Assembly: GCF_003288845.1 (NCBI RefSeq)
Contig: NZ_NHYN01000019.1
Span: forward strand, 1-39,483
DNA from: Helicobacter monodelphidis
Lineage (GTDB): Bacteria; Campylobacterota; Campylobacteria; Campylobacterales; Helicobacteraceae
DNA: 39,483 nucleotides
Reading direction: 5' to 3'
In this document: positions 30,389 to 38,978 of the stretch, piece after piece
How positions within the stretch are numbered: position 1 is the first letter of the stretch
Layout of the letters: each line of letters opens with the position of its first letter
The notes under the pieces: generated by a model
What the model was told of the DNA's origin: nothing
The model's database searches: none
The model's input: only the letters and a program-made list of their open reading frames with translations
Program-made: the position numbers and the translations under genes

Positions 30389-30799
30389 ATGTTTGAGATT
30401 AACGGTATAGCGAGGATTACGCATAATTTGGAGCTAAAAACATTACCTAGTGGAAAAAGTATGTTGAATTTGCAATTAGCGAGCAACAAGAAACGTAAAG
30501 ATGATAACGGAAATAGCATTGAAGAGGCTTGTTTCTTAGAATGCACAGCATTTGGCGCTCACGCAGATACAATCTTTCATTATCTGAAAAAGGGCAGTCC
30601 TATTTTTGTGCGAGGAGAGCTTAAGCTAGAACAATGGAATGATATTGAAGGACAAAAAAGGCAAAAGCATAAGATGATTTTAAGCTCATTTGAGTTTGTG
30701 CCAAAAACAACAGAGGCGCAAAGCGATAAAAAAGAGGTGCAAAAACATCAAGTCCCTAATGTGAGGATTGAATATGATGAGGAAGACATCCCATTTTAA
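30389..30799 (+). CDS. ssb: Single-stranded DNA-binding protein of the element
   Basis: A 136-residue SSB. OB-fold text: FEINGIARITHNLELKTLPS, SMLNLQLASNKKRKDDNG, FLECTAFGAHADTIFHYLKK and GSPIFVRGELKLEQW. The C-terminal tip ends DEEDIPF, the acidic tail that recruits replication proteins. It differs from a chromosomal SSB in being shorter and inside the element, so it likely serves the element's own replication. It lies just before the integrase gene. Confidence 0.92.
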   Translation: MFEINGIARITHNLELKTLPSGKSMLNLQLASNKKRKDDNGNSIEEACFLECTAFGAHADTIFHYLKKGSPIFVRGELKLEQWNDIEGQKRQKHKMILSSFEFVPKTTEAQSDKKEVQKHQVPNVRIEYDEEDIPF

Positions 30800-30818
30800 G
30801 CAAGAAAGGAGCGGAAAA

Positions 30819-32033
30819 ATGCTAGAATCAAAGAGCCTACAGCCTCCTTTTACAAAGGTAGGTTTGATGAAAAAATACAAACATGTGTATGCTAGAAATG
30901 GCATTATATATATCGCAGGAACGATTCAAGGAGTGCGTTATAGAAAATCCACAGGAAAGGTGGCAAACGCCTTGAATATGAGATGGTGCGATGAAAATTG
31001 GCAGAATGTTTTGCAGGACATACTCGCAAATGAAGGTATGGAAAAGGTTGCAAAAGCAAAGGTAGAGATTGAACGTAGAGGTTCTTTAACATTGGAGAGA
31101 TATGCCGAAAAAATGTTTGAGATTTGGCAGACAGTGTGCAAAAAAAGCACACTGGATATGAGAAAAAGAGTCTTTAGGACATATGTCATGGGTAAAATCG
31201 GGGATTTGAAAATCAATGAAATTGATTACTCTGTTTGCAGAGACTTCATCCATTCTCTCAAAGACAAAAATGGGAATGCGCTGGGTGCAGCGATGGTAAA
31301 GAATGTCAAAATATTGCTCAACCTATTTCTTAACGAGGCGGTGAGAGAGAAAATCATTGCAGAAAATCCGATGAAAGCGGTTAGAACGATGAAAGTGATA
31401 CGCAAATCTGTAGAGCCATTCACAGAGCGAGAAATGAGCTTGATGATTGAAAGTTGTGAAAATAGCCTTGAGAGGGCATTTATCGTAACCGCATTTTTCA
31501 CAGGAATGCGGACAGGTGAGCTACTTGCTTTGCAATGGGATTGCGTGGATTTTACCAACAAAACGATTCTTGTCAAGTCATCTGTTTACAAAGGCGAGTT
31601 AAGCACGACAAAAACAGGCAAAGAAAGGCAGATTGATATGCTTCCGATTGTGGAAAGTGCTTTGAAAAGGCTTAAGGAAGAATCAAATAGCGATTTTTGC
31701 TTTTGCACCAAATATGGAAAAATGTTAAGTGGCACAGGTTCTATTCGCCGATTGTGGTGCAAGATTTTACAAGATAGTGGCATTGCTTATCGCAATGTTT
31801 ATCAGACAAGGCATACTTTTGCAAGTTTGATGATAAGCAAAGGTGAAAATGTAATGTGGGTGCAGAGAATGCTTGGACATTCAGATTTGCGGGTTACATT
31901 TTCTCATTATGCGAAGTATGTCCCGACTTCAAATACGCAAAAGGCGTCTTTTGTGAGTGAGAGTTTTGGGAATGTGTTGAGTTGCTTTGAAGTGGATTCA
32001 GAGAAAAACCACGCAAAAAACATTCTGTGTTGA
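30819..32033 (+). CDS. int: Tyrosine recombinase/integrase
   Basis: A 404-residue integrase with an N-terminal arm-binding part (KYKHVYARNGIIYIAGTIQG), a SAM-like core-binding part (about 95-190) and the catalytic domain: Arg of box I in FFTGMRTGELLALQWD (near residue 230), box II YQTRHTFASLMIS (Arg-His; the usual first His is Tyr), LGHSDLRVTFSHYAKY with the nucleophile Tyr. I chose the ATG at 30819, with AAGGAG 7 bases upstream, over a start 17 codons earlier inside ssb. It is the last gene of the element, its 3' end facing the probable attachment end. Confidence 0.93.
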   Translation: MLESKSLQPPFTKVGLMKKYKHVYARNGIIYIAGTIQGVRYRKSTGKVANALNMRWCDENWQNVLQDILANEGMEKVAKAKVEIERRGSLTLERYAEKMFEIWQTVCKKSTLDMRKRVFRTYVMGKIGDLKINEIDYSVCRDFIHSLKDKNGNALGAAMVKNVKILLNLFLNEAVREKIIAENPMKAVRTMKVIRKSVEPFTEREMSLMIESCENSLERAFIVTAFFTGMRTGELLALQWDCVDFTNKTILVKSSVYKGELSTTKTGKERQIDMLPIVESALKRLKEESNSDFCFCTKYGKMLSGTGSIRRLWCKILQDSGIAYRNVYQTRHTFASLMISKGENVMWVQRMLGHSDLRVTFSHYAKYVPTSNTQKASFVSESFGNVLSCFEVDSEKNHAKNILC

Positions 32034-32394: not shown

Positions 32395-33558
32395 TTAAGG
32401 TAGAGTTTTTTTACTAATGCAAAGTACTAAGCCAATCGCAATACAATTTGCAATAAGAGAGCTTCCGCCATAACTATAGAAAGGTACGGCAATTCCTTTG
32501 ATGGGGGTTAAACCAGAAATTCCATAGGCATTAATCAAGAAGGAGAATCCAAGCATTAAGCCTATACCTATACAAAAGAGGTATGAAACTTGACTTTGAC
32601 TACGATTTGCAATGCGGAATATGCGATAAATAATAGCTAGAAATAGAATGACACATAAGATTAATCCAAACAAACCTACTTCTTCAGCAATTCCCGCTAA
32701 TACAATATCAGTATGCACTTCACTTAAAAAGCCAAGCTTAATAAGTCCATTACCTAAACCTTCACCAAAGAATCCGCCATTTTGAATTGCATTTAAAGAA
32801 TGCTGAATTTGATAGGGTTCAGGAAGATTTTCTACTCTAAGAGGAGCAGCAAACCATTCAGGTAAAATTGAGAGGATAAATTTTTGCGAGATTGCCCACC
32901 ATTGTTTAATGCGCAAGATACGATGGTCACTACTCACAATCAAGATAAATACAGCAAAAATTGCACCAAAAAGCAAAGAGAAAAAGAGCTTAAAGCTCCC
33001 ACCCGCACAAAGCAGCATTAGGACAAATGTGATTCCTAAAAGAAAGATTTGTCCTAAATCATTCTGTAAAATTGCAATTAAAAAGCCTAGAATAATCAAT
33101 AAAATACCATAGGGAAGAAAGATTCTGAATTCTTCTTTAAACTCCTTTATTGAATCTGTTTCATCATATTTGCGTGCAAAACTCCATGCTAAAAAAAAGA
33201 TGAAACCAATTTTAAAAAATTCTACAGGGGAGAGAGAAAAAAAGGGAAAGCGAATCCATCTTTTTGCACCTCCTGCACTTGTTGCGAGGCTTTCAGGGAG
33301 AAAATGCATTACAAGCATTAAAACCATACAAACAAAAAAGAGTAAGAAACCTATATTCTTAACAAGGCTATCTGGATTTCCGCGTGAAATAAGCCACATT
33401 AAGGTAATTCCAATAATGCCAGAAATAAGTTGGCGTATAAAAAAATGAAACTGTCCGTATTCAAAATATAAAATTGTGTATGCAGATAAAGAATAAGATG
33501 CAAGAATGCCGATTAATATGGCGGTTGAGGTAAGTACAAAAAGAGTTCTGTCAATCAA
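32395..33558 (-). CDS. ftsW: SEDS-family septal glycosyltransferase FtsW
   Basis: A 387-residue polytopic membrane protein of the SEDS family with about ten helices. Motifs: ILQNDLGQIFLLGITF, GGFFGEGLGNGLIKLGFLSE and HTDIVLAGIAEEVGLFG in the long loop, and GIAVPFYSYGGSSLIANCIA at the end. It polymerises lipid II at the septum with a class B PBP. FtsW rather than RodA is inferred from linkage to flgB-flgC-fliE-ftsI as in H. pylori (as I recall). Start appears to be TTG at 33558 with AAGGGAT upstream; no ATG fits nearby. Confidence 0.88.
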   Translation of the reverse strand: MIDRTLFVLTSTAILIGILASYSLSAYTILYFEYGQFHFFIRQLISGIIGITLMWLISRGNPDSLVKNIGFLLFFVCMVLMLVMHFLPESLATSAGGAKRWIRFPFFSLSPVEFFKIGFIFFLAWSFARKYDETDSIKEFKEEFRIFLPYGILLIILGFLIAILQNDLGQIFLLGITFVLMLLCAGGSFKLFFSLLFGAIFAVFILIVSSDHRILRIKQWWAISQKFILSILPEWFAAPLRVENLPEPYQIQHSLNAIQNGGFFGEGLGNGLIKLGFLSEVHTDIVLAGIAEEVGLFGLILCVILFLAIIYRIFRIANRSQSQVSYLFCIGIGLMLGFSFLINAYGISGLTPIKGIAVPFYSYGGSSLIANCIAIGLVLCISKKTLP

Positions 33559-33721
33559 TATGTTATCCCTTAATTTTTATTGTTTTGGAAGTGTAATTTT
33601 AATAAAAAATAGCTTGTATAGAGTTTTGATTCTATGGATTTTAATAGAATTGTGTAAAATTTTTAAGTATTATACCTAAATAGCCGAAAATATGCTAAAA
33701 TTTTATGGGTATACTCTGAAA

Positions 33722-33840
33722 TGCACATTTTGAAGGACAAAAGAGTCATACAAATTCTCTTTTAAATATCCTCTAAGGATTTCTTTTGATGGAGGTCTTT
33801 GAGGTAATTTTTCAAAAAAATTGAAAAATTATTGTTTTTT
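33722..33840 (+). ncRNA. Candidate small RNA (three stem-loops, intrinsic terminator)
   Basis: A TATACT -10 at 33710-33715 would start transcription near 33722. Stem 1: AAAAGAG/CTCTTTT (33739-33745 and 33757-33763, 11-base loop). Stem 2: ATCCT/AGGAT (33768-33772 and 33776-33780, loop 3). Stem 3: AATTTTTCAA/TTGAAAAATT (33806-33815 and 33821-33830, loop 5), then TTTTTT at 33835-33840. All stems are perfect. An 11-codon reading frame starting at 33789 ends inside stem 3. No known RNA family recognised; it could also be a terminator guarding the flgB promoter. Confidence 0.4.
33806..33840 (+). terminator. Intrinsic terminator-like hairpin upstream of the flgB promoter
   Basis: Perfect 10-base stem (33806-33815 with 33821-33830), 5-base loop, six T at 33835-33840. 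The stem is AT-only apart from one C-G pair, so strength is moderate. It would end any plus-strand transcript just before the sigma54 promoter. Confidence 0.55.
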
Positions 33841-33860
33841 AAATCTAAAAAGAGCAAAAG

Positions 33861-33877
33861 TGGAACTATTCTTGCTT
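33861..33877 (+). promoter_or_regulatory. Sigma54 (RpoN) promoter of flgB-flgC-fliE
   Basis: TGGAAC (33861-33866), five bases, TTGCTT (33872-33877): a near-ideal -24/-12 sigma54 element (TGG and TTGC at the right spacing). Its position, 41 bases before the flgB ATG, fits. In Helicobacter rod and hook genes are RpoN-dependent with the FlgR activator, so this matches known regulation. Confidence 0.85.
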
Positions 33878-33918
33878 TGATCTGTTGTATTAGAGATTTG
33901 CAAGAAAAGGACTTTAAA

Positions 33919-34365
33919 ATGATTAGTAAAGCAGAGAGTATCTTTAGCTACTCTAAAGCTAGAGAAGTAGCATATAAGGCACTTGATTATCGTTCCTTAA
34001 GACAGGACTTGATAGCAAGTAATATCGCGAATGTTGATACACCGATGTATCGCCCTAAAGATGTGAATTTTGAGCAAGTGTTAGCAAAGAAGGCACACGA
34101 ACTGCTTAACTATGCACCTAACAAGAAGCTAATGCTAGGGAAGGCTGATGGTCGTCATCTTGATCCGACAGGTCCAAGAGATGACAAGAGCACAATATTC
34201 TATCGCGATGGACACTTAGCAAGAAACGATGGTAACAGCGTGGATCTTGATGTAGAAACCAGCGAGATGGGAAAGAACTCTGTAATGTATCAAGCCATTG
34301 TAGGGTCTCTAAAGAAGCATGGTGGGATTTACTCCTATGCAATTGAATCAAGCCGTTCTTTATAA
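33919..34365 (+). CDS. flgB: Flagellar basal-body proximal rod protein FlgB
   Basis: A 148-residue rod protein. ASNIANVDTPMYRPKDVNF is the FlgB N-terminal signature; DGNSVDLDVETSEMGKNSVM is the C-terminal half motif. I chose the ATG at 33919 (AAAGGAC 8 bases before it) because it lies downstream of the sigma54 promoter; the frame is open further upstream but the promoter would then be inside the gene. Followed after 16 bases by flgC. Exported by the flagellar type III system. Confidence 0.95.
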   Translation: MISKAESIFSYSKAREVAYKALDYRSLRQDLIASNIANVDTPMYRPKDVNFEQVLAKKAHELLNYAPNKKLMLGKADGRHLDPTGPRDDKSTIFYRDGHLARNDGNSVDLDVETSEMGKNSVMYQAIVGSLKKHGGIYSYAIESSRSL

Positions 34366-34381
34366 GGGTAGGAGGTAGAGT

Positions 34382-34876
34382 ATGTCTTTTATGTCTAGTT
34401 TTGATATTAGTGGCTATGGTTTGTCTTCACAACGTGTAAGACTTAATATGATTTCAAGTAACATTGCAAATGCAAACACAACAAGGACAGATGAGGGTGG
34501 ACCTTATCGTCGTAAAGATGTTATTTTTAAAGCGTTTGATTTTGATAAAGTCTTGAATGAGAAGTTAGGTAAGGATAACAATCTACTCAAATATGAAGAT
34601 CCTCTTGATGAAGATGAGTGGGGGCAAGAGCCTAAGCCAGCAATTATGAGTGTGTATATTGATAAGATTGTGCGAGATGATACAGAACCTAGAATGAAGT
34701 ATGAGCCACATCATCCAGATGCAAATAGTGAGGGTTATGTGGCTTATCCAAACATTAATCCGGTTGTTGAAATGTCTAATCTTATTGAAACTACAAGAGC
34801 TTATCAAGCGAATGTTGCAGCATTTCAGAGTGCAAAAAATATTAGCAGTACAGCATTGACTATGTTCCAAGCGTAG
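34382..34876 (+). CDS. flgC: Flagellar basal-body rod protein FlgC
   Basis: A 164-residue rod protein. SSNIANANTTRTDEGGPYRR at the N terminus and NPVVEMSNLIETTRAYQANV at the C terminus are the classical rod-family ends. Ribosome-binding site AGGAGGTAGAG, 5 bases before the ATG. Second gene of the flgB-flgC-fliE group. A stem-loop follows in the gap to fliE. Confidence 0.96.
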   Translation: MSFMSSFDISGYGLSSQRVRLNMISSNIANANTTRTDEGGPYRRKDVIFKAFDFDKVLNEKLGKDNNLLKYEDPLDEDEWGQEPKPAIMSVYIDKIVRDDTEPRMKYEPHHPDANSEGYVAYPNINPVVEMSNLIETTRAYQANVAAFQSAKNISSTALTMFQA

Positions 34877-34903
34877 TGGTTTCAGGCTAGTTACAGGTTA
34901 AAG

Positions 34904-34950
34904 TTTCTATAATATCGTTAATGATTTTAAAAAGAGTGACGATATAGAAA
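34904..34950 (+). other. Stem-loop in the flgC-fliE gap
   Basis: ATATCGT (34912-34918) pairs with ACGATAT (34939-34945), extended by TTTCT (34904-34908) with AGAAA (34946-34950) across a 3-base bulge; loop 20 bases. No T tract follows, so more likely an mRNA-processing or stability element than a terminator. Alternatively chance pairing in AT-rich DNA. Confidence 0.35.
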
Positions 34951-35002
34951 ATGAGGCTTTTAGGATTTAAGAAGGCTTATAAAAAATGACAAGGAGTCTA
35001 TT

Positions 35003-35335
35003 ATGGCGGATATTAATAAATTTGGTCAGATAGCACCATTTAATCCAATTACACCCGTTACGCCTATTGGTGGAGCAGCTCCGCAAAGGTTTCCCATCAA
35101 TGACGCTCCTCTTGATAAAAGTTTTGCGAGCGTTCTTAAGCAAGCTGTTGATGAAGTGAATACAAAGCAACAACAGAGTGAACAGGCGTTGGCGGATGTT
35201 GCTACTGGTCAGGTTAAGGATCTCCATCAAGCAGCAATTGCGATTGGTAAGGCGGAAAATAGTATGAAATTGATGCTCGAAGTTCGTAATAAAGCAATCA
35301 GTGCATACAAAGAGATTTTAAGGACCCAGATATAG
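35003..35335 (+). CDS. fliE: Flagellar hook-basal body complex protein FliE
   Basis: A 110-residue FliE: SFASVLKQAVDEVNTKQQQS, ADVATGQVKDLHQAAIAIGK and MKLMLEVRNKAISAYKEILR are the family core. It links the MS ring to the rod and is a type III export substrate. AAGGAG ribosome-binding site 7 bases before the ATG. It lies 126 bases after flgC, and ftsI starts 12 bases downstream. Confidence 0.95.
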   Translation: MADINKFGQIAPFNPITPVTPIGGAAPQRFPINDAPLDKSFASVLKQAVDEVNTKQQQSEQALADVATGQVKDLHQAAIAIGKAENSMKLMLEVRNKAISAYKEILRTQI

Positions 35336-35347
35336 TTATTATTGCTT

Positions 35348-37114
35348 ATGGAGGGTTCTAGTGTACGCATAGGCAAAGTAGTTGTTCTATACGCTCTTTT
35401 GCTGGTGTGCTTTTTGTTGTTTATTGCTTCCTTAATCTATGTGAATTATAGTGAGAGGAAGCTTCCTGCATTGCGAAGCTTTCGCATCGAGAGTGCGATT
35501 CGTGGATCTATCTATAGTAGCGATGGTTTTATGCTTGCGTCAAGCAAGAAACTTTACAAGGCGATAGTGAACACTTATAATATTGATCCCCAAAAAGAAG
35601 AATTATTCGTTAATCTCTTTTCTATTTACTCTAAAATCCCTAGAACACAAATCCGAGAAAGACTTAAGAAAAAAGGTAATGTTGTTTTGTCTTATAATCT
35701 AGATTCTAAGACGGCGGCGAATTTGAAACAACTTGTTTATACCTTGAATCTTTACAATGTTTTTCGTGAGTATGAAGATAATCAAGGACGTGTTTTTAAG
35801 TATGGATTGTCTATCTTAGAGAGTGGAGAAAAAAGAGACTATTTGTATGAGAATTCCATGGAGCCATTAATTGGTTATGTTCGCAAAACAGAGGAAGCAA
35901 AAATAACGAAGGTAAGCGGGGTTAAGGGTATAGAAGGTTCTTATAATGGTGAACTTGAACCTCTAGCGAATGGTAGAATGGAGGGAGCGAGGGACATTGG
36001 TTTTAATTTAATTTTGAATCGTGAAGCTTTTTATCGCGAACGTAGCGATGGCTATAGCTTATCATTAAGTGTCCCTTTAAAGCTACAAAAAAAGATTGAG
36101 CGGCTTTTAGATGAGGAGAATCAAAGAATCGGTGCAAAGGAAGTGATAGCAGGGATTATGGATGCAGAAAGTGGTAAGATCCTTGCCTTAGCAACAACAA
36201 AGCGATTTGATCCAAATAATATCACACAAGATATTTATTCTCATCTGAATGTTTCAGCTGTTGAATACGCCTTTGAACCAGGTAGTATTGTGAAACCCCT
36301 TATTTATGCGATTCTCTTAGAAAATAACTTACTTGACTTTAAAGAACGATTTCCTTTGTATGGTGGACGCTATCGCATTGGAGATTCTGTTATCACAGAT
36401 ACACATAGTATGAAAGAGGCAAATGCAGAAGATATTATGATATTTTCTAGTAATATCGGTATGGCACAAATTGCACAGAAACTTTCGCCTATACAGTATT
36501 ATGATGGATTAAAGCATATTGGTTTTTCAGAATTAAGTGGCATTGATTTACCTTATGAGCAAGTGGGCAAGATTCCAACTCCAGCAATGTTCAATAATCA
36601 GCTTTATAAGGCAACAGTGGCTTATGGGTATGGTTTGCAAAGCACTTTTATTCAAATGTTAAAAGCTTATAATATTATTACCAACAATGGCTTAACGCAT
36701 TCTCCTTATATTGCGGAATTTCTCATTGATTCTAATGATTTACAATATCCAATTAAACATCCAGAACCGATTCAGGTGATTCGCAAGGAAAATGCAATTA
36801 TTTTGCAAGATATGTTGATTAAAACAGTACAAAAAGGAACGGGTAGAGGTGCAGCTGTGAACGGTGTTGTTGTGGGCGGTAAAACAGGAACTGCTCATAT
36901 TGCTGAGAATGGACGTTATGTAAATCGTTATAATAGCTCTTTTTTTGGTTTTGCAGCTGACCCAATTTCTCGCTATACAATCGGCGTTGTTGTTTTAGAG
37001 CCTAATACGCAGGAGGCTTATTTTTCCGCACGAACCGCAGTTCCTGTGTATAAAAAAATTGTTGAGTTATTGATGAGTGAGCGCTATTTGCACGCATCTT
37101 CTGTATCACCCTAA
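35348..37114 (+). CDS. ftsI: Class B penicillin-binding protein (FtsI/PBP3-like)
   Basis: A 588-residue transpeptidase with one N-terminal membrane helix (about 12-33), a pedestal domain and a C-terminal transpeptidase domain: SxxK in EPGSIVKPLIYAILL (Ser near residue 313), SxN in SSNIGMAQIAQKL, KTGTA near 511. It crosslinks septal peptidoglycan. Partner of the SEDS protein FtsW encoded just beyond flgB. Start: ATG at 35348 preferred; TTG at 35342 is possible, and the Shine-Dalgarno is weak, suggesting coupling to fliE. Confidence 0.9.
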   Translation: MEGSSVRIGKVVVLYALLLVCFLLFIASLIYVNYSERKLPALRSFRIESAIRGSIYSSDGFMLASSKKLYKAIVNTYNIDPQKEELFVNLFSIYSKIPRTQIRERLKKKGNVVLSYNLDSKTAANLKQLVYTLNLYNVFREYEDNQGRVFKYGLSILESGEKRDYLYENSMEPLIGYVRKTEEAKITKVSGVKGIEGSYNGELEPLANGRMEGARDIGFNLILNREAFYRERSDGYSLSLSVPLKLQKKIERLLDEENQRIGAKEVIAGIMDAESGKILALATTKRFDPNNITQDIYSHLNVSAVEYAFEPGSIVKPLIYAILLENNLLDFKERFPLYGGRYRIGDSVITDTHSMKEANAEDIMIFSSNIGMAQIAQKLSPIQYYDGLKHIGFSELSGIDLPYEQVGKIPTPAMFNNQLYKATVAYGYGLQSTFIQMLKAYNIITNNGLTHSPYIAEFLIDSNDLQYPIKHPEPIQVIRKENAIILQDMLIKTVQKGTGRGAAVNGVVVGGKTGTAHIAENGRYVNRYNSSFFGFAADPISRYTIGVVVLEPNTQEAYFSARTAVPVYKKIVELLMSERYLHASSVSP

Positions 37115-37959: not shown

Positions 37960-38130
37960 ATGAAGAGTAAATTAAAAGCAGTTATTCAACTTAGTCAAGT
38001 TCCCGAAGATACAACGGGCAAAGATTTGGAATTGATGACGAGATCTAATCTTACTTTCAATGAAGCGATGGCAAGTCGCATTTTAAAGGAGAGAATATGG
38101 CAACATTTATGGAAAAAGATGTGCTTTTAG
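37960..38130 (+). pseudogene. Remnant reading frame at the left end of the toxin-antitoxin duplication
   Basis: An up to 75-codon frame (open from 37903; ATG at 37960 has GAGGA upstream). It reads KLKAVIQLSQVPEDTTGKDL, then NLTFNEAMASRILKERI. Its tail segment lies in the 38-base block at 38062-38099 that recurs twice more (38530-38566 and 39000-39037), so this is the 3' end of an older gene whose end was copied. No family recognised. It runs 34 bases into the first antitoxin gene. Confidence 0.4.
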
Positions 38131-38309
38131 AGTATGCAAACATTGGGTATCTTACAATGAATTTGGAAGATACTCCAGAAATAGAACAGGATTTAAAGGA
38201 AGTGGGTTTGCTATGGAATGAGATATTAATGACTAATCCAGAAGATATTGATTACCAAGCTATGCTTGAAAGAATTAGAGTTATAAGAGTAAAATATGAA
38301 CAGCAATGA
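38097..38309 (+). CDS. Small protein upstream of zeta-toxin fragment, copy 1 (likely antitoxin)
   Basis: A 70-residue, acidic, helical protein (MEKDVLLEYANIGYLTMNLE; PEDIDYQAMLERIRVIRVKY). Its end overlaps the toxin-like frame by 14 bases, as in coupled toxin-antitoxin pairs, and AAAGGAG precedes it. No antitoxin family recognised by sequence; role inferred from place. The second copy lies 467 bases downstream. Confidence 0.6.
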   Translation: MATFMEKDVLLEYANIGYLTMNLEDTPEIEQDLKEVGLLWNEILMTNPEDIDYQAMLERIRVIRVKYEQQ

Positions 38310-38508
38310 ACTTGAAAGAATATGGAAAAAAGAAATTATTAATAAAACCATTGCTACCCCACATCAACAAAACCCTAAAGGTTTTGTATTAGGGGGGCAA
38401 CCCGGAGCGGGTAAATCTGCTTTGATTCAAAAGGTAAAGGAACAATTGCAAGGAAATGTTGTTGTGATTAATGCTGATGATTTACTAAAGGGCAAGAAAA
38501 GGGTTTAG
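38296..38508 (+). pseudogene. Truncated zeta-type toxin, copy 1
   Basis: A 70-residue fragment beginning MNSNELERIWKKEIINKT and carrying the zeta/PezT-like P-loop FVLGGQPGAGKSALIQKVKE and VVVINADDLL. It then ends after LKGKKRV. Full zeta kinases need about 200 more residues for substrate binding and the lid, so it cannot phosphorylate UDP-GlcNAc by the known mechanism. Overlaps the antitoxin by 14 bases. Confidence 0.7.
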
Positions 38509-38563
38509 ATTTACAAAAGAGATACATACGAAGCGATGGCAGTCGCATTTTAAAGGAGAGAAT

Positions 38564-38776
38564 ATGGCAACATTTATGGAAAAAGATGTGCTTTTAGAAT
38601 ATGCACATATTGGGCATCTTACAATGAATTTGGAATATACGACAGAAATAGAACAGGATTTAAGAAATATGCACTTGTTATGGGATGAAATAATAATGAC
38701 TAATCCAGAAGATATTGATTACCAAGCTATGCTTGAAAGAATTAGAGCTATAAGAGTAAAATATGAACAGCAATGA
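38564..38776 (+). CDS. Small protein upstream of zeta-toxin fragment, copy 2 (likely antitoxin)
   Basis: A 70-residue copy of the protein at 38097-38309; 59 of 70 residues agree. Differences cluster in the middle (AHIGHLTMNLEYTTEIEQDL, then RNMHLLWDEIIMTN), while both ends are unchanged. Same 14-base overlap with the toxin fragment. Likely antitoxin by position. Confidence 0.6.
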   Translation: MATFMEKDVLLEYAHIGHLTMNLEYTTEIEQDLRNMHLLWDEIIMTNPEDIDYQAMLERIRAIRVKYEQQ

Positions 38777-38978
38777 GTTTGAAAGAATATGGGAACAGGA
38801 AATTGGCAGTGCAAACCCTTTAGTTACCCCACATCAACAAAACCCTAAAGGTTTTGTATTAGGGGGGCAACCAGGAGCGGGTAAATCTGCTTTGATTCAA
38901 AAGGTAAAGGAACAATTACAAGGAAATGTTGTTGTGATTAATGCTGATGATTTACTAAAGGGCAAGAAAAAGGTTTAG
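38763..38978 (+). pseudogene. Truncated zeta-type toxin, copy 2
   Basis: A 71-residue near copy of the frame at 38296-38508. From TPHQQNPKGFVLGGQPGAGK onward it matches except for one Arg/Lys change; the N-terminal 21 residues differ (IWEQEIGSANPLV versus IWKKEIINKTIA). Ends at the same point, LKGKKKV. Followed by the third leading block and the VbhA-like gene. Confidence 0.7.

Follow-up and report, generated by a model that had tools for sequence, protein, structure and literature searches.

The intergenic gap between the divergent genes ftsW and flgB of Helicobacter monodelphidis carries a non-random hairpin with a run of T residues on its flgB side, within a stretch of 39,483 nucleotides of contig NZ_NHYN01000019.1 (hereafter the window, whose positions are used throughout). 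Quite possibly, although we put this forward tentatively, the hairpin marks the end of a leader transcript that would be initiated by a housekeeping sigma factor and stopped before the sigma54 promoter of flgB, with the terminator acting as an insulator or attenuator. The gap probably holds a modest element of local control or insulation and not an established regulatory RNA, and the function of the predicted RNA of about 130 nt itself is uncertain.

The gap comprises 360 bases (33559-33918). On one side lies ftsW, an open reading frame of the FtsW/RodA/SpoVE family with a TTG start (32395-33558, minus strand; PF01098, E 6.4e-86), and on the other flgB (33919-34365, plus strand; PF00460), which begins with the ATG at 33919 and was matched in 118 of the 119 family genomes searched, its own included. 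Open reading frames and Pfam matches place flgC, fliE and a gene for a PBP2/FtsI-type transpeptidase downstream in the same direction (34382-37114, plus strand). The sigma54 promoter box of flgB, TGGAACTATTCTTGCTT, was located by pattern match at 33861-33877 on the plus strand. A phage-type integrase gene (PF00589) is found at 30768-32033 on the plus strand, ending about 360 bases from the 3' end of ftsW, and a mobile element may abut the ftsW/flgB region. On the far side of the operon, positions 38097-38978 contain two tandem copies of a 70-residue open reading frame followed by an open reading frame of 70-71 residues; similarity of the latter to Zeta_toxin (PF06414) is limited to the initial part of that domain, and the whole looks like a duplicated, truncated toxin-antitoxin locus.

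The hairpin occupies 33805-33831 on the plus strand, where a perfect stem of 11 bp with a single G-C pair closes a five-base loop (AAAAA) and is followed by TTG and six T at 33835-33840. The T run is present on the flgB side only and ends 20 bases upstream of the sigma54 box. In 3000 dinucleotide shuffles of 33559-33918, a perfect stem of at least 11 bp with a T-rich tail arose 7 times and one of at least 9 bp 37 times (loops of 3-8 bases, with thresholds chosen after the hairpin had been seen), and the whole window contains three T-tailed perfect stems of at least 9 bp, this one included. A terminator scan that requires three G-C pairs reported none, the stem having been missed because it has only one. 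Judged by its sequence, 33805-33840 corresponds to the Rho-independent terminator expected at the 3' end of an intergenic small RNA. No upstream gene obviously needs such a terminator, since ftsW points the other way and the integrase gene, the nearest on the plus strand in that direction, ends at 32033. A terminator that faces flgB between divergent genes therefore makes it likely that transcription starts inside the gap.

The remainder of the predicted RNA is less distinctive. An earlier note on this DNA had described three perfect stem-loops, the last with a stem of ten bases and six T, and all three are present; the first two (33739-33763, 7 bp with a loop of 11, and 33768-33780, 5 bp with a loop of 3, both on the plus strand) are within chance, whereas the last exceeds it, with a stem of 11 bp instead of 10. 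Three hairpins of at least 5 bp within 33710-33840 were reached in 324 of 1000 shuffles, and the part upstream of the terminator, taken alone, was equalled by 280 of 1000 shuffles at 5 bp and by 80 of 1000 at 7 bp. The same picture emerges from the overall fold, with a z-score of -3.43 for 33690-33860 (0 of 200 shuffles as good) and -2.64 for 33707-33840 (4 of 300), and an unremarkable -0.91 once the terminator is left out.

Two plus-strand sequences could serve as the promoter. TATACT at 33710-33715, with an alternative start at about 33722, was the -10 element of the earlier note; although the sequence is present, it is contained in 97 of 1000 shuffles of the gap, and a promoter scan of 33000-34600 listed no plus-strand site near it. 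By its sequence, the candidate extended -10 TGCTAAAAT at 33693-33701 appears better formed, with a start expected at the GGG at about 33707-33709, and is also at chance level (TGNTANNAT occurs in 234 of 1000 shuffles of the gap). From this candidate promoter and the terminator, a short RNA of about 130 nt is predicted at 33707-33840 on the plus strand. The joint best sites of the scan are both on the minus strand: a promoter-like TTAGCA-18-TATAAT directed towards ftsW (33669-33698, 10 of 12 matches) and a site at 33658-33629. The TGCTAA of the candidate plus-strand -10 doubles as the -35 hexamer of this ftsW-directed site on the other strand. A sigma28 promoter of the form TAAGTATT-N11-GCCGAAAA (33664-33690) was considered and rejected, as by eye it has AA after CGA where the flagellin leaders of the genus have TA or TT.

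In the proposed sequence of events, a housekeeping-sigma promoter within the divergent control region would fire towards flgB, and the AU-rich intrinsic terminator at 33805-33840 would halt the majority of polymerases 20 bases short of the sigma54 box, releasing a leader RNA of about 130 nt. Unscheduled transcription would in this way be kept off the sigma54 promoter of the flgB-flgC-fliE-transpeptidase operon, while some read-through may supply the operon at a basal level. The claim of a complete independent transcript thus survives in part, a short transcript being reasonable from a terminator between divergent genes, while the TATACT promoter is doubtful and no convincing homologue was found in the relatives searched; of the two roles suggested for it, insulation of the flagellar promoter fits the geometry better than action in trans, for which there is one weak pairing lead. 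Against the leader reading stand the chance-level promoter candidates of the window, the double role of TGCTAA as part of the ftsW-directed site, the absence of the element from every congener and the lone G-C pair of the stem. A TATAAT in the gap between flgC and fliE, from which fliE and the transpeptidase gene may already be transcribed, also speaks against it. That gap (34904-34950) has this TATAAT at 34908-34913, a sigma28-like ACGATAT and an inverted repeat (TTTCTATAATATCGT / ACGATATAGAAA), and is a possible internal promoter for the two genes.

In favour of the leader reading, a plus-strand TATAAT is often found in the same gap of relatives. Of 46 Helicobacter loci, 22 carry it in the 150 nt that precede the sigma54 box of flgB, as compared to 8.1 expected from shuffles, and the minus-strand TATAAT occurs in 20 of the 46, counts which overstate the evidence because the species are related and not independent. 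The sample consisted of 54 loci, from which eight were dropped, seven without a recognisable box and one (L056) with too little upstream DNA. In four loci (L062, L066, L069 and L077) a TATAAT lies exactly 34 nt before the box. The fuller TGCTATAAT is present in the same gap of eight relatives (L042, L045, L048, L049, L051, L054, L060 and L071), mostly gastric species. It lies 41-64 nt before their boxes, as against about 165 nt for TGCTAAAAT in the window, and the two are therefore not positional equivalents, which, like the minus-strand TATAAT, counts against the leader reading. On the flgB side of these eight loci, TGCTATAAT overlaps an opposite TATAAT towards a divergent open reading frame of 385-402 residues, taken as ftsW, and together they form a putative palindromic divergent promoter. 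A second sigma54-type box, TGGAACATCATTTGCT, was observed in three loci of H. rappini/H. bilis (L062, L069 and L077), 278-288 nt before the flgB match.

The placement of the terminator was also compared across the sigma54 sites of the genome. The motif TGGAAYNNNNNTTGCTT has 22 sites, as opposed to none for the reversed control pattern, and the box is a specific motif in this genome. Among these 22 sites, collected with one strict pattern, only that of flgB has a strong AU-rich terminator between divergent genes, and its preceding hairpins are the strongest (-8.5 and -9.0 kcal/mol). Weaker hairpins (-3.2 to -7.0 kcal/mol) precede sites L162, L166, L172, L173, L178 and L179, that of L173 being the same hairpin as that of L172. 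The nearest upstream open reading frame is divergent at eight other sites (L158, L165, L168-L171, L177 and L178), of which only L178 has a hairpin, a weak one. A general insulation of sigma54 promoters was consequently rejected: none of the 21 other sites, the eight divergent ones included, has such a terminator, and insulation is therefore not a general need or habit of this genome, a further point against the leader reading. In the family, 6 of 54 loci (L032, L033, L045, L048, L066 and L075) have a T-tailed hairpin of at least 6 bp and -3 kcal/mol or lower in the 320 nt preceding the box or, for loci in which no box was recognised, preceding flgB.

Similarity searches returned no convincing homologue, either of the gap by BLASTN in 59 genomes (58 besides its own), of the candidate RNA in five genomes of the genus, where it is single copy, or of the RNA body in 121 family genomes (120 besides its own, four of them congeners). 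The gap was matched in 32 of the 59 genomes, its own included, at E 0.01 or better. Five of these are the window itself and the sigma54-box and leader matches of the congeners G001, G002, G003 and G004; the other 27, short and with E values of 3.8e-5 to 0.01, were not counted as homologues. For the RNA body, 11 of the 121 genomes, its own included, were matched, and the ten non-self matches were rejected (21-76 bases, E 1.4e-4 to 8.5e-3; all lie away from flgB). Local alignment of the RNA to the G002 gap was equalled by 179 of 1000 shuffles. Within the genus, clear similarity to the gap is restricted to the sigma54 box and the flgB leader. Conserved pairing of the stems in relatives, which the earlier note had proposed as a check, was not found in the four congeners or the family genomes, the congeners being too distant for a strong test: identity at flgB third positions between the window and the congeners is 0.44-0.50, which is saturated, and the conservation test therefore has little power.

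Another element was detected in three of the congeners. Directly before the flgB sigma54 box, G001, G003 and G004 share a segment of 136-137 nt starting GGGTACC (L031:179-314, L032:2647-2783 and L033:224-360). In pairwise comparison, 124, 122 and 131 of its positions are identical, or 89-96% as compared to 84-91% at flgB third positions, and the 60 bases that precede it, interrupted by gaps, are less conserved. Its fold is no better than that of shuffles. Homology of the window RNA to this element was rejected, as 666, 599 and 606 of 1000 shuffles scored as high in local alignment and 116, 82 and 92 of 1000 in global alignment; with scores at shuffle level, the two are treated as unrelated. 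The likenesses seen are a GGGTA at the placed start of both and, in L032 and L033, a weak hairpin that stops 26 nt short of the sigma54 box. A small protein of 31 codons in the congeners' element was likewise discarded, since L031 and L032 disagree at 8 of its 31 residues, whereas identity at flgB first and second positions is 97-99%, so that the frame does not behave like a coding gene.

This lack of convincing homologues, together with the restriction of similarity to the sigma54 box and flgB leader, agrees with a rather unlikely alternative in which the hairpin and the promoter-like sites arose incidentally in an AT-rich gap that changes fast, with only ftsW and flgB transcribed, or in which the palindrome is a relic or serves to bind a protein. 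It also agrees with the shuffle results, in which the hairpin alone exceeds chance and the promoter candidates do not. It is less easily reconciled with a T run found on the flgB side only, just before a promoter, and with the rarity of such a stem in the shuffles (7 of 3000).

An independent small RNA with its own promoter and terminator, acting in trans by pairing with mRNAs that are possibly flagellar, is unlikely. The layout of promoter, body and terminator accords with it, and the flgB ribosome-binding site would be its best candidate target. Co-folding of the RNA with the flgB start gave -15.0 kcal/mol as compared to about -6 for shuffles, was beaten by none of 200 RNA shuffles, none of 200 leader shuffles and 1 of 150 in a separate test, and ranked 2 of 102 start regions of the genome, a set rich in flagellar genes. 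For the duplex energy with the 91-nt flgB leader, 8 of 400 shuffled RNAs and 1 of 400 shuffled leaders did as well, whereas with the 46-nt leader this energy was ordinary (55 and 65 of 400 as good), and the simple duplex energy with the flgB start was equalled by 19 of 200. Over 22 sigma54 leaders the mean z was at chance level (-0.15); the own leader of flgB was the lowest (z -2.11, 6 of 200 shuffles as good), having been singled out after all 22 had been tested. Three other start regions co-fold about as well (L178 at -16.6, L163 at -14.7 and L165 at -13.8 kcal/mol). For three congeners there is no sign of the pairing (113, 189 and 174 of 200 shuffled RNAs do as well), for the G002 gap it is weak (25 of 200), and the single-copy RNA is not conserved. 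The predicted pairing with the flgB ribosome-binding site may thus be taken as a lead only. A specific form of this idea, in which the terminated leader RNA pairs with that site (AAAAGGA) and the sigma54-made flgB mRNA is thereby repressed in translation by housekeeping transcription coming from the side of ftsW, is very improbable; if true, it would link division-gene control to flagellar rod assembly.

Improbable as well, somewhat less so than that specific form, is a regulated attenuator or riboswitch-like flgB leader in which an alternative fold opens the terminator. The position before the operon would suit such a device, and two possible overlapping stems, TTTTGAAGGACAAAA and AAAAGAG..CTCTTTT, share bases; a non-systematic look made out no antiterminator, the body folds no better than shuffles and no conserved body was found. 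Rfam at gathering score gave no match in the whole window. A permissive search of 33560-33930 gave five, all far below gathering scores and at chance level, and matches in a permissive search of five loci of the genus were also below gathering scores.

CsrA and FliW control flagella in this class, and both csrA and fliW are encoded in the genome, together with three ANGGA motifs in the gap (33733, 33775 and 33789); a CsrA-binding sponge RNA is nonetheless scarcely credible, with three or more motifs in 133 of 3000 shuffles, one motif able to sit in a loop, that of a hairpin of -0.5 kcal/mol, and no ANGGA in the congeners' element. The multiple GGA in hairpin loops of RNAs of the CsrB/RsmZ type were accordingly not found among the three motifs, only one of which would be in a loop, and a weak one. 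In the available part of one report, C. jejuni and H. pylori are described as lacking CsrA-antagonizing sRNAs (PMC4894983), and nothing in the flgB gap overturns that. In the same genome, the 5' leader of a flagellin gene (L141) contains GGGTAAGGATACCC and GGTAAGGATACCC, hairpins with AAGGA loops which resemble the ANGGA loops described, in the accessible part of that report, for Campylobacter flaA (PMC4894983).

Among the literature matches listed, which consisted of the starts of abstracts with few subscription papers and are weak evidence of absence, there was no mention of an RNA between ftsW and flgB in Helicobacteraceae. Of the described cases met, UpsM of Rhodobacter sphaeroides may be regarded as the nearest in layout. 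As far as the available text of that study goes, UpsM is the 5'-leader sRNA of the dcw cluster, is made by a Rho-independent terminator, has been shown by experiment, is cleaved by RNase E and is conserved in its family (PMC5089854). The predicted RNA would resemble it as a short, terminator-made leader of an operon with cell-wall or division genes. Unlike UpsM, to judge from that text, the flgB element is predicted from sequence, has no homologue that was found and is followed by a second promoter, of the sigma54 type, after the terminator.

Flagellar small RNAs of Campylobacter offer a second comparison. In the excerpted report, CjNC1 and CjNC4 (CJnc10/CJnc170) are predicted to target sigma54 leaders, and their sigma28 promoters (CGATwt) lie downstream of cj0082 and cj1633c (PMC4626219). 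The likeness, as seen in that excerpt, is that of a short RNA encoded between genes, in a related group and with a tie to the control of flagella (PMC4626219); the difference is that the gap lacks CGATwt and that group-wide pairing with sigma54 leaders is at chance. By eye, no CGATwt sigma28 promoter was found in the gap, and the flagellin leaders of the genus have CGATAT or CGATTA sites. CJnc230 of Campylobacter jejuni, in the portion of the article at hand, is an sRNA adjoining a sigma54-dependent flagellar gene, downstream of flgE, with RNase III processing and a weak RpoD promoter also reported, whereas the predicted flgB RNA would precede the sigma54 promoter (PMC11187230).

The more general point is that the gap evolves rapidly among members of the genus, whereas the sigma54 box and the flgB leader stay recognisable. 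If real, the proposed leader transcript and its terminator would constitute a simple case of a terminator keeping a sigma54 flagellar promoter clear of housekeeping transcription, and one outside the studied Helicobacter and Campylobacter models. As the operon contains a gene for a cell-wall transpeptidase, how the two promoters are balanced could have consequences other than for motility.
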